Of a DNA stretch of 64,000 nucleotides, positions 36,000-40,925 are shown one piece after another; position 1 is the first letter of the stretch; every line of letters starts with the position of its first letter. Location of the stretch: NCBI GenBank assembly GCA_021776615.1, contig JAJFFO010000020.1, positions 1-64,000 of the forward strand, written 5' to 3'. This stretch comes from Robiginitomaculum sp. Lineage in GTDB: Bacteria > Pseudomonadota > Alphaproteobacteria > Caulobacterales > Maricaulaceae. The notes beneath the pieces are model-generated. The model saw nothing but the letters and a program-made list of their open reading frames with translations, did no database searches and was not told where the DNA came from. The translations under genes were made by a program, and so were the position numbers.

Positions 36000-38224
36000 G
36001 CGTCGCCAAAATCGATGACCGTGGCTGTCCGACCATGGGCGGGCCAACCGCCATGCACGGGGCCGGGGCAGACCCTTCCGCTTTTGTCATTGAAGATGAC
36101 GGGGTGGCGCATCTTGATTTATTAGTGCGCGGTGCCCGGTGTGCCGGTTGCATCGGCAAGATTGAGGGCGGCGTCAATGCCATTCCCGGTGTGGTTTCCA
36201 GCGCGCTAAATTTAAGTACCGGGAAATTATCCGTGGACTGGGCAATGGGCGGCACCGACCCGGCATTGATTACCCGCACCGTGTCCGATTTGGGCTATCA
36301 AGTTTCTCCCTATGACCCCGGTGAAGCGCAAAGTGAACGCGACCATCAGGGGCGGTTTTTGCTGCTATGCATGGCGGTTTCCGGCTTTGCCGCGATGAAT
36401 ATTATGTTGTTTTCGGTATCGGTCTGGGCCGGATTTTCCGGGGAGATGCAAGACAGCACCCGCAGCCTGTTTCATTGGGTGTCGGCGCTGATTGCCTTGC
36501 CCGCAGCGGCCTTTGCCGGGCAGCCGTTTTTTCGCCCCGCCTTTGCTTCCTTGCGCAAGGCCAAAGCCAATATGGATGTACCAATATCGCTGGCGGTTTT
36601 GTTGGCGTTGGCGGTCAGTCTTTACGAAACCATGGTTGGCGGTCAGGACACTTATTTTGATGCGGCGGTCATGCTGCTGTTCTTTTTGCTGATTGGCCGT
36701 TGGCTTGACCACCGTTTGCGCGGGCAGACCCGCCTGGCGGCGCGCGAATTATTGGCCCTGCAAGCCACCAGCGCCAATTTGTTGCAAAGCGATGGCGCGG
36801 TAAAGGCGGTGCAGGCGCGCGAGATTGAACCCGGTGATATGTTGATCTTGTGGCCGGGCGACCGGGCACCGGTGGACGGGCTGATTGTCGAGGGCGCTTC
36901 CGATGTGGACATGGCACTGGTGAGCGGCGAAAGCGCGCCGGAATTGGTTGGCGCGGGCCAGTCTATTCGCGCGGGCATGGTAAACCTTACCGACAAATTG
37001 GTATTGCGGGCCAGCGCCCGCACCGAGGATTCGCTGTTGGCGGATTTAACCCGGCTGGTCGAAGCGGGCGAAACTGCCCGGGGGCGCTTTGTCAAACTTG
37101 CCGACAAAGCGGCGCAAGCCTATGTGCCGATTGTTCATAGTCTGGCGGCTTTGTCATTTGCCGGATGGTTGCTGGCCGGGGCGGGCATGCACCAAGCGGT
37201 GCTGATCGCCGCTGCGGTGCTGATTATTACCTGTCCGTGCGCCTTGGGCTTGGCGGCTCCGGCCGTGCAAATTGTGGCTGTGGGGCGGTTGTTTAAGCGC
37301 GGCGTACTGGTCAAAGCTGGCGATGCCCTGGAACGTCTGGCAATCGTCGATACGGTATTGCTGGATAAAACCGGCACCCTGACCCAGGGCAAGCCGTATC
37401 TGCTTAATGCCGCGCAGATCGCACCGGAAGATTTACAATTAGCGGCGCTTTTGGCTCGTTCCAGCCGCCATCCATTGTCGCGCGCTATTGCCGATTTGGC
37501 CGGGCCGGGTCCGGTGGCGCCAGACGCCAAGGAGACGCCGGGCTGCGGCGTGGAAGGCGTCATTGACGGTGTACGCGTGCGTCTGGGCCGCGCTGATTGG
37601 GCCGGGGCACCAAAAGGCGAGGACGAAACCAGCGGGTTATGGCTGGTTATCGAGGGAAAAGCCCCGCTTCATTTTGCTTTTGAAGATGCTTTGCGACCCG
37701 ATGCGGCACAATTGGTGGCCGGACTAAAAGCGCGCGGGCTGGCGGTGCAAATGCTGTCCGGTGACCGCGAAATACCTGCCAAAGCCGCCGCGGCACAAGC
37801 CGGCATAGACGCCATCAGCTTTGGCCTGACGCCGCAGGAAAAAATACGCCGGGTTGAGGCCTTGGTTGCTGAAGGCAAACAGGTATTGATGATTGGTGAT
37901 GGCTTGAATGACGCCCCGGCGCTGGCGGCGGCCAATGTTTCCATCTCCCCGGCCAGTGCTGCCGATGCCTCGCAGGCCGCCGCCGATATGGTCTTGCAAA
38001 GCGCCGCATTGGTGCCGGTATTGGCCGCCATTGATCTGTCCAAAGCCGCCCGTGGGCGTATTTTGCAAAACTTCCTGCTGGCCGCTGGTTATAATGTGCT
38101 GGCCGTGCCGCTGGCGGTGTTTGGCATGGTGACACCGATGATTGCCGCTATTGCCATGTCAGCGTCGTCGATTGTGGTGACGCTTAATGCCTTGCGGCCA
38201 TTTTTGCGCAAGAACACATTATGA
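35996..38224 (+). CDS. ccoI: Copper-translocating P-type ATPase (FixI/CcoI)
   Basis: 742-residue heavy-metal P1B ATPase that supplies copper to CcoN. The N-terminus has an extra segment (CPTMGGPTAMHGAG), then a metal-binding domain with GARCAGC (Cys49, Cys52). The membrane CPC motif is Cys413-Pro-Cys415 (TCPCALGL), the phosphorylation site is Asp457 (DKTGTLT), then SSRHPLSRAI and GDGLNDAPALAAANV. The order after ccoGH and before ccoS fits FixI. Confidence 0.97.
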   Translation: MSVAKIDDRGCPTMGGPTAMHGAGADPSAFVIEDDGVAHLDLLVRGARCAGCIGKIEGGVNAIPGVVSSALNLSTGKLSVDWAMGGTDPALITRTVSDLGYQVSPYDPGEAQSERDHQGRFLLLCMAVSGFAAMNIMLFSVSVWAGFSGEMQDSTRSLFHWVSALIALPAAAFAGQPFFRPAFASLRKAKANMDVPISLAVLLALAVSLYETMVGGQDTYFDAAVMLLFFLLIGRWLDHRLRGQTRLAARELLALQATSANLLQSDGAVKAVQAREIEPGDMLILWPGDRAPVDGLIVEGASDVDMALVSGESAPELVGAGQSIRAGMVNLTDKLVLRASARTEDSLLADLTRLVEAGETARGRFVKLADKAAQAYVPIVHSLAALSFAGWLLAGAGMHQAVLIAAAVLIITCPCALGLAAPAVQIVAVGRLFKRGVLVKAGDALERLAIVDTVLLDKTGTLTQGKPYLLNAAQIAPEDLQLAALLARSSRHPLSRAIADLAGPGPVAPDAKETPGCGVEGVIDGVRVRLGRADWAGAPKGEDETSGLWLVIEGKAPLHFAFEDALRPDAAQLVAGLKARGLAVQMLSGDREIPAKAAAAQAGIDAISFGLTPQEKIRRVEALVAEGKQVLMIGDGLNDAPALAAANVSISPASAADASQAAADMVLQSAALVPVLAAIDLSKAARGRILQNFLLAAGYNVLAVPLAVFGMVTPMIAAIAMSASSIVVTLNALRPFLRKNTL

Positions 38225-38385
38225 CAGTGCTGGTTTTTCTTATTCCCGCCGCGTTGTTTTTGGCGCTTTTGGGCCTTGGTGCATTTATCTGGACGGTTAA
38301 ATCGGGCCAGTATGATGATCTTGAAGGCGCGAAGTGGCGCATTTTTCTGGGCGATGATGAGGACGACAATATTCCCGGTGGTTGA
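38221..38385 (+). CDS. ccoS: cbb3 oxidase maturation protein CcoS
   Basis: 54-residue protein too short for many gene finders. It reads MTVLVFLIPAALFLALLGLGAF then IWTVKSGQYDDLEGAKWRIF and an acidic end DDEDD. The helix followed by SGQYDDLEGAKWRIF is the signature of CcoS, needed for cofactor insertion into the oxidase. It overlaps ccoI by 4 bases (ATGA). Last gene of the cluster. Confidence 0.95.
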   Translation: MTVLVFLIPAALFLALLGLGAFIWTVKSGQYDDLEGAKWRIFLGDDEDDNIPGG

Positions 38386-38483: not shown

Positions 38484-39983
38484 ATGGACTTGGTGAATAC
38501 CGTTAGAAATGCGCTGCTTTGCGGCACGCTATTGATGGGCCTGCCTGCCTTCGCGCAATCGGAAGACGAAAAGGCGGAAAAGAAAAAACCAGCGGTGAAG
38601 ACCTTAAGCAAGCCAGTGGTAAAAGTGCCGGTGCACACCAGTCCGGCCAAAGCAGGAAAAACACCAACATTGTCGGTCCGCCCGCCGGTCATCGGCGCAC
38701 CCTTGCCACAAGGGGTTGGTGGATCTGGCACGCCAGACAATAAGCCCGTGCAAAATGCGCCAGTTATTGGGGCGCCCCTGCCGCAAGGCGTCGGCGGATC
38801 TAGCGCGCAGGAAAAAAAGCCTGCGCAATCCACCCCAATTATAGGCGCGCCGCTGGCACCGGGCGTGGGTGGCTCGTCCGCTGGCGATAAGAAGCCGGTG
38901 CAAAACGCACCAATTATTGGTGCGCCGGGGCCGGCAACCAGTTCTTCCACTTTTGAATCAAAACCTGTGGAAGCCAGTGTTTCAAGGGGCGGGCGCGAGA
39001 CCTACACGCTTTCAAACGGCCAGCAAGTGCCCCGCACCGGCCCGGATGGTCGCGCCGGCGTACCTGACAATAAGGGCGGTGTTGCCTATAAAGGCGGCAC
39101 CTATATTACTACGGACGAAAGCGGCAATACCGTGGTCAGCCAAGGCGGCAAAGTACAAAGCGTTACACCGCCGCCCGGGTCCGGCACTGGCGGCGCAATC
39201 CCCGGCCGGTCCAGCACCGGTGAATTGACCTATACCCTGTCCAACGGCCAGCAAATTCCACGCTTCGGCCCTGAGGGAAGCGGCGTCGGTGTCGCTGACA
39301 ATAAGGGCGGCGTTGCCTATGGCGACGGCACCTATGTGATGGTCAATGAAAAGGGCGATACCGTGGTTTCGCGCAATGGCGAAGTGGTAAGCACAACGCC
39401 TGCGCCAGATTCTGGGGATTCTGGGGATGACTCATCTTCTGACTCGTCGTCAAACGCCGATGATGATTCTTCAGATTCTGACGATACTTCTTCGGATGAT
39501 GACAGCTCATCAGACGATAAGGATACGGGCAGCGATGATACAGATGGCGCCGAAGCTGGAGATGGTGGCAAAGACGATGGTTCAAAAGACGGTGCCGATA
39601 AATTTGGCGTTGGTGCAGGCGCTAATAGCGGGCCCGGTAAAATCGTGACCGATATTGTCAATCGCCGCATGGGCATTGGCCGTGAGCCAGAATCCAGCGG
39701 CCCGGAAGATTGCACCGAGCAAAACGGCGGCACGGTGATGGACCCATGGGGCGCAGGGCAAAGCAATTGCGTACCCGCCGGTACGCCGCGCCCCGGCGAT
39801 GGTAATGATGATGACCGGGGCACTGCCGGGGCCATTTGGCAGGCACCATCAAAGGGCAGCATACGCGGCGCGGTTACTCAGCCGGGCTTGAATAACCCGA
39901 CTTTGGGTCGTGATCATGGCAAAGCTCCTTTGGAGGTTCTGGAACTTTTCGAGGATTCGGTGACCAACCCTGCGCCAAATTAA
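38484..39983 (+). CDS. Secreted repeat protein with acidic Ser/Asp tract, unknown function
   Basis: 499 residues, starting at the ATG with GGGGA 8 bases upstream (an ATG two codons earlier and a TTG further upstream are possible). Signal peptide ends at about PAFAQ (25). Residues 68-150 hold four 25-residue repeats (core PVIGAPLPQGVGGS). Residues 172-310 hold two about 77-residue modules with YTLSNGQQ(V/I)PR, DNKGGVAY and GTY. Residues 310-372 are nearly all Asp/Ser/Gly. The C-terminus has a Cys pair (410 and 429) and is Pro/Gly-rich. No family recognised. It starts about 100 bases after ccoS on the same strand, but a link to the oxidase is not shown. Confidence 0.8.
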   Translation: MDLVNTVRNALLCGTLLMGLPAFAQSEDEKAEKKKPAVKTLSKPVVKVPVHTSPAKAGKTPTLSVRPPVIGAPLPQGVGGSGTPDNKPVQNAPVIGAPLPQGVGGSSAQEKKPAQSTPIIGAPLAPGVGGSSAGDKKPVQNAPIIGAPGPATSSSTFESKPVEASVSRGGRETYTLSNGQQVPRTGPDGRAGVPDNKGGVAYKGGTYITTDESGNTVVSQGGKVQSVTPPPGSGTGGAIPGRSSTGELTYTLSNGQQIPRFGPEGSGVGVADNKGGVAYGDGTYVMVNEKGDTVVSRNGEVVSTTPAPDSGDSGDDSSSDSSSNADDDSSDSDDTSSDDDSSSDDKDTGSDDTDGAEAGDGGKDDGSKDGADKFGVGAGANSGPGKIVTDIVNRRMGIGREPESSGPEDCTEQNGGTVMDPWGAGQSNCVPAGTPRPGDGNDDDRGTAGAIWQAPSKGSIRGAVTQPGLNNPTLGRDHGKAPLEVLELFEDSVTNPAPN

Positions 39984-39985
39984 AT

Positions 39986-40789
39986 TTACTTCGCCGGTGG
40001 CTGGACCATTTCGCGATAGGCGTGCCAGGTGGCATGGCCCATTAACGGGAATACTACAATCAGGCCTAAAAATAGGAATGCCAGACCGAAAAAAGTGTAA
40101 AGTGCAATCAGCCACGCCCATACCAGCATCGGGCCGGGGTGCATTAATACCATGCGTAGACTGGCCGATATGGCGGTAATACCGTCCACATGGTGTTCTA
40201 GCAAGATCGGGATGGACAGGGCGCTAACCGAAAATGCAAACATGGCGATAACCATGCCGATGAGGGTGCCAATACTGGCCATGGTCAGGCCGGATTTGGT
40301 GGTGAACACGAAAGTGACAAAGTCCTGAGCCGCCAGAGAATGTCCGTTGGAAAACAGCGCAAACAGTAATAATGCAACTTGCATCCACACAATAAACGCC
40401 AACACCAATGCCAGTGCCACATAGGCCAATTGGCGCGGTTCGGCGAAGCGGTTGGGCATTATCACGCTTAAATCCAGCGCTTTGCCTTCTTCATCGCGGC
40501 GCGAAATCGCGTACAGCCCCACTGCCAAAAGCGGCCCCAACATCACAAATCCACCGGCGGCTGCGGGTATTAACGCCTCCCAGCCCAGCTTGAACAAAAT
40601 AAACATCATCAACAGCCCGCCAAAAGTGAAGGCAAAACCGTAGCCCAGCGAATATAATGGGTGACGCCATACATCGTCCCAACCGGCGCTTACCCACCGC
40701 ATTGGCGAACTCATATTTGGTGCCCGCAGCACCAAGCTATCCATATGCCGGGTTTCCTTAACGCCGCCGCTCGATGTGTTGGCCGTCAT
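39986..40789 (-). CDS. DUF2189 membrane protein
   Basis: 267-residue inner-membrane protein. The start MTANTSSGGVKE is preceded by GGGGAGAGG (ribosome site); a longer frame upstream lacks one. The order of helices (YSLGYGFAFTFGGLLMMF, AAAGGFVMLGPLLAVGLYAISRR, LALVLAFIVWMQVALLLFAL, TLIGMVIAMFAFSVSALSIPILLEH) and SSPMRWVSAGWDDVWRHP match the DUF2189 family, whose function is unknown. Its end is 3 bases from the end of the convergent repeat protein. Confidence 0.9.
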   Translation of the reverse strand: MTANTSSGGVKETRHMDSLVLRAPNMSSPMRWVSAGWDDVWRHPLYSLGYGFAFTFGGLLMMFILFKLGWEALIPAAAGGFVMLGPLLAVGLYAISRRDEEGKALDLSVIMPNRFAEPRQLAYVALALVLAFIVWMQVALLLFALFSNGHSLAAQDFVTFVFTTKSGLTMASIGTLIGMVIAMFAFSVSALSIPILLEHHVDGITAISASLRMVLMHPGPMLVWAWLIALYTFFGLAFLFLGLIVVFPLMGHATWHAYREMVQPPAK

Positions 40790-40925
40790 CTGCCTCTCCC
40801 CAATTTCCCCCCGGCTTTTGCCGGTTTGTATTAGTTGTAATGGCATCAGCAAAAACCCTTGCGGGCGCGCGTGCCACCTCTAAAGTGAATCATAACAAAA
40901 AAGAGTCAATTGGGAGAGGGCCAAA

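Follow-up and report, generated by a model that had tools for sequence, protein, structure and literature searches.

The window analysed here, a stretch of 64,000 nucleotides from Robiginitomaculum sp., carries an open reading frame for a repeat protein which, judging from its substitution pattern, is a real, coding gene maintained by purifying selection in two species of the genus. Our favoured reading, which is held tentatively, is that it encodes a taxonomically restricted protein, Sec-exported and probably disordered over most of its length, which resides in the envelope or is secreted and acts as a spacer, tether or matrix component. The gene, its parts and its two neighbours are as follows.

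38221..38385, plus strand: small ccoS-like gene at the end of the cbb3 cluster (by eye), which we take to be ccoS by name
38484..39983, plus strand: open reading frame of the predicted exported repeat protein, 499 aa, stop included
38484..38555, plus strand: putative signal peptide, residues 1-24, cleavage site AFA|QS by eye (ALA|QS in the orthologue)
38556..38681, plus strand: Lys/Pro-rich head, residues 25-66, net charge +6
38682..38990, plus strand: Pro/Gly-rich region with four 25-residue IGAP repeats, residues 67-169
39003..39176, plus strand: predicted beta module 1 (by alignment; model pLDDT about 80)
39231..39407, plus strand: predicted beta module 2 (by alignment; model pLDDT about 80)
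39408..39599, plus strand: acidic Asp/Ser tract, residues 309-372, net charge -23
39639..39980, plus strand: C-terminal region with two Cys, low model confidence
39986..40852, minus strand: convergent DUF2189 membrane-protein gene (PF09955, E 2.5e-30), a neighbour common to both genomes; limits are those of the open reading frame as listed, and the start may be further in

The frame of 499 residues at 38484-39983 on the plus strand, first described in a sequence-only reading, was confirmed, and most of the architecture given there stood. The IGAP motifs start at residues 70, 95, 120, and 145, so the four reported repeats are spaced by exactly 25 residues, with the fourth copy degenerate by eye. 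The two modules, described as about 77 residues long, were found with a period of 76 (YTLSNGQQ at residues 174 and 250), each consisting of a conserved core of 57-59 residues and a linker of about 17. Repetition in this frame is far above chance: 10 repeated 8-mers are observed, whereas 1000 shuffles of the whole sequence gave 0.001 on average and never more than 1. The acidic tract is present as described, but calling it nearly pure Asp/Ser over 60 residues was somewhat overstated: 25 D and 18 S make up 43 of its 64 residues (67%), and only the densest core of 37 residues (309-345) reaches at least 85% D/S. Two cysteines near the C-terminus, C410 and C429, are present as reported and kept in the orthologue, while C13, within the signal peptide, is missing there. 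The export proposed earlier is supported by the signal peptide recognised by eye. Neither orthologue shows a lipobox pattern within its first 40 residues or an LPxTG motif, so these motifs fit the surface and the periplasm alike.

The sole orthologue found (locus L005) belongs to the congeneric metagenome-assembled genome Robiginitomaculum sp. OFTM333, which we take to be the same genome as G017, encoding a protein of 479 aa with 67% identity and its parts in identical order. One passage of PMC11442690 names Robiginitomaculum MAGs from a subsea tunnel without mentioning OFTM, and we claim no habitat. Comparison of the two genes gives pN 0.22 and pS 0.74 (Nei-Gojobori), which shows that a coding gene is maintained; the corresponding dN/dS of 0.07 is rough, because synonymous sites are near saturation. 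The rival explanation, in which the frame is non-coding or decaying and its openness accidental, could draw on overlapping antiparallel frames, the longest of 217 aa, but the frame is intact in both genomes and the substitution pattern refutes this explanation, to which we give practically no credence. Identity is highest in module 1 (83%) and module 2 (87%), followed by the IGAP region (70%), the C-terminus (about 65-66%), the acidic tract (53%), the head (50%), and the signal peptide (40%). The orthologue has three IGAP copies against four in the window protein, with constant spacing, and both proteins share the same charge polarity, with the head at +6 in the window and +5 in the orthologue, and the acidic tract at -23 and -30, respectively. 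No clear common promoter was found in the upstream DNA of the two orthologues.

According to the structure models, the repeat protein is probably mostly disordered. The full-length AlphaFold model has a mean pLDDT of 47.7, with 328 of 499 residues below 50, although it was built from a two-sequence alignment, which makes low pLDDT weak evidence for disorder. In this model the modules reach about 69-83, and lower values are seen for the linker (57) and for part of the acidic tract (53-56). The module structure prediction suggested by the sequence-only reading was run on the pair and returned two moderately confident beta-meander modules (pLDDT 80.6, pTM 0.52), almost all beta, with 11 strands of at least 3 residues. 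The earlier statement that the modular order resembles no known family is also supported: the whole protein has no Pfam, NCBIfam, or PHROGs match at E 1, and the C-terminal region no family match at E 10. Foldseek returned nothing at E 0.001 for the full-length model, against viral structures, or for the module pair against the PDB, and by sequence the best PDB matches had E 0.9 (whole protein) and 0.23 (module profile).

Below these thresholds, two kinds of beta fold recur. Searched against the PDB with Foldseek, the module pair returns TCP10/CPAP chains in all of its first 8 rows (E 2.8e-3 to 1.9e-2), with TM 0.16-0.22 and rmsd 12-19 A. A TCP10 chain likewise heads the VIA-align list (Z 3.5, rmsd 3.9, 47 aligned), on a par with the rows that follow, among them propeller chains such as Prp19 (Z 3.3, rmsd 2.3, 37 aligned). 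Like the modules, the G-box of TCP10/CPAP (Tcp10_C, PF07202) is a meander of beta-hairpins that have NG/DG turns; however, its profile reaches 15.8 bits, below the curated cutoff of 36, in one of four modules, which is the orthologue's and not the window's. The passages of PMC3776556 on the TCP domain describe a proline-recognition domain forming a single-layer sheet of about 20 strands, compared with the 11 of the module-pair model. For the NHL fold, module 2 matches TRIM71 at a whole-sequence E of 3.4e-4, which sums six weak blades, the best single blade having an i-Evalue of 0.26-0.53 in the three alignments shown; in VIA-align, 37 residues superpose on a Mei-P26 chain (Z 2.8, rmsd 2.1). 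Pfam NHL was not listed for any of the four modules at E 10, a search in which HMMER filters remove most weak matches. An NHL or other beta-propeller is a closed ring of several blades; the repeat protein has only two modules. Taken together, the weak TCP10/CPAP and NHL-blade matches concur in pointing to a beta-meander, without demonstrating membership in either family.

In the favoured reading of an envelope or secreted protein, the signal peptide recognised by eye would direct export via Sec; the Lys/Pro-rich head would rest on anionic polymers of the envelope; extended hydrated spacers would be formed by the Pro/Gly repeats and by the Asp/Ser tract; and the two beta modules, together with the C-terminus and its possible disulfide, would provide the specific binding. 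The protein as a whole would thus be a tether or matrix component in the periplasm or at the cell surface. The polarised charge, the repeats of fixed length but varying number, and the conserved modules suggest such a spacer-plus-binding-module protein, and a repeat number that varies (4 versus 3) at constant spacing is as expected for spacers. A specific role for the head is weakened by its identity being lower than that of the acidic tract, for which a spacer role is possible. A much bolder version, very improbable in our estimation, holds that the modules form a TCP10-like beta-meander of bacteria that recognises proline and takes as its ligand the PVIGAPLPQG repeats of the protein itself, giving a head-to-tail periplasmic or extracellular fibre hydrated by the Asp/Ser tract; this speculative self-binding case is suggested by proline recognition in the TCP domain and by the protein's own proline-rich repeats.

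The acidic tract has also been read differently. Asp/Ser-rich mineral-associated proteins bind cations in bulk, and the net charges of -23 and -30 in the two orthologues would suit a soluble divalent-cation or mineral-binding protein whose tract binds Ca2+ or other cations in this way. GGxGxD is the motif of RTX calcium-binding repeats, and it has no match in either orthologue; a single EF-loop-like match at residue 365 is missing from the orthologue, so the calcium binding proposed from sequence gained no motif support. Moreover, the tract is poorly conserved in sequence (53%), which leaves composition as the only property of it that could matter, and we consider a cation-binding protein unlikely. 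Another alternative is a surface adhesin or a holdfast or biofilm matrix protein, in which an SD-type stalk carries beta modules that bind a surface glycan. Staphylococcal Sdr/Clf proteins, characterised by long runs of SD dipeptides, by Ig-like domains, and by an LPXTG anchor, are likewise exported with an Asp/Ser tract as a possible stalk, and the putative signal peptide, the SD-rich tract, the tandem beta modules, and some lectin chains among the weak structure rows all fit an adhesin. However, no lectin row is significant, both proteins are without the LPxTG anchor, the window protein is without a Pfam match, and Pfam export or outer-membrane domains were not found either, so this alternative is doubtful as well.

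Beyond the two congeners, no convincing match was found in any other genome sampled. The gene was detected in 2 of 41 relatives and, at E 0.001, in 2 of the 18 genomes of the genus; a third genus genome (G009, E 0.06) was rejected for one internal stop. Eleven of these 18 genomes reach 90% completeness with no more than 5% contamination, with the gene in one of them, and the absence is only partly firm because the other seven miss these limits. Among 299 genomes of the order, three pass E 0.01: the two already named and G062 (L008), whose matching frame has one internal stop, lies in an unrelated region, and was rejected. In the family sample, the C-terminal profile matched 3 of 137 genomes, the third (G073, E 0.009) sitting among unrelated frames, and the module profile matched seven at E 0.1, namely the two and five at 0.01-0.1, of which G058 and G716 are unrelated genes by eye and G733, G012, and G739 (E 0.07-0.1) were taken as chance. 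The module profile also found 4 of 385 genomes of the class at E 0.01, the window's own and three that were rejected (L035 and L036, substrate-binding-protein-like frames by eye; L037, a frame with a stop amid unrelated genes), while 2 of 398 in the phylum at E 0.001 were the window's own genome and a frame with 2 stops (G1101). These relative, genus, order, family, class, and phylum samples overlap. A scan of genome contigs gave the one locus in OFTM333, viral contigs gave no match, and neither plasmids and phages by tblastn nor plasmids by blastn gave any. The sequence-only reading had counted absence of the same repeats outside the genus against its proposal, and in the genomes sampled they are indeed absent there.

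Failure of detection as the cause of this absence, an idea considered in the light of PMC7660931, was rejected: three neighbouring proteins together are 85% identical to the window in OFTM333 and 82-83% identical in seven relatives without the gene, and since the gene itself is 67% identical in OFTM333, it should be detectable in those seven. In a ninth genome, G015, the neighbours are 64% identical and detection is less sure. Foreign origin was also considered; GC3 is 0.564 against 0.61-0.65 in eight neighbouring genes, a slight difference that is not decisive.

The sites without the gene can be read directly in several relatives. The convergent DUF2189 neighbour was detected in 13 of 18 genus genomes, and its flank was read in nine of the 11 without the repeat gene (G001 and G011 were left out). 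In six of the nine (G010, G007, G002, G012, G015, and G004), the distance to the far end of the DUF2189 match is 183-274 nt from the end of ccoI and 25-116 nt from that of the ccoS-like frame, so that the ccoS-like frame and DUF2189 adjoin with no space for the repeat gene; in the other three (G003, G005, and G009), different genes adjoin DUF2189. We infer either that an ancestor of these species acquired the gene between ccoS and DUF2189 or that other lineages lost it; a three-gene tree places the long-branched G015 beside the window and so does not separate gain from loss. The neighbouring cco, SDR, phosphotransferase-like, and acyl-CoA dehydrogenase-like genes bear presumed names, whereas DUF2189 was identified by search.

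The position after the cbb3 cluster, emphasised in the sequence-only reading, is true of the window but does not carry over as a functional signal. In OFTM333 the cco cluster lies on contig C18, where different genes come after it; the repeat gene is on contig C13, together with DUF2189 and the genes beyond. An accessory protein for cbb3 oxidase assembly, which the place of the gene after ccoS might suggest, is therefore very improbable in our view: the gene is apart from the cluster in OFTM333, the cluster ends at this site without it in six of the nine flanks, and conserved linkage was thus found neither in OFTM333 nor in the relatives. Lineage-restricted exported proteins are common in bacteria, and this one is of that ordinary kind and matters little in itself; it offers a clean example, combining gene-less sites in relatives with purifying selection between two species, and a module that is a small unannotated, predicted beta-meander.

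Several minor observations were made at this locus. Short palindromic elements containing GTCATTCCGG occupy the place that the repeat gene has in the window, between the ccoS-like frame and DUF2189 at L030 and L032 and 196-396 nt past the end of DUF2189 at L027 and L029, with a related form by eye at L026; the interval may be insertion-prone. This 10-mer occurs in 9 of 45 loci (5 genomes, several loci overlapping) and not in the window. The genome G014 (99% complete) has no match at E 0.001 to the window CcoN and none to DUF2189, and the cbb3 oxidase may accordingly not be universal in the genus. Finally, ccoN of G012 (L030), which lies about 6.9-7.0 kb ahead of DUF2189, is broken into two frames of 367 and 218 aa that overlap, which is a frameshift or an assembly error.
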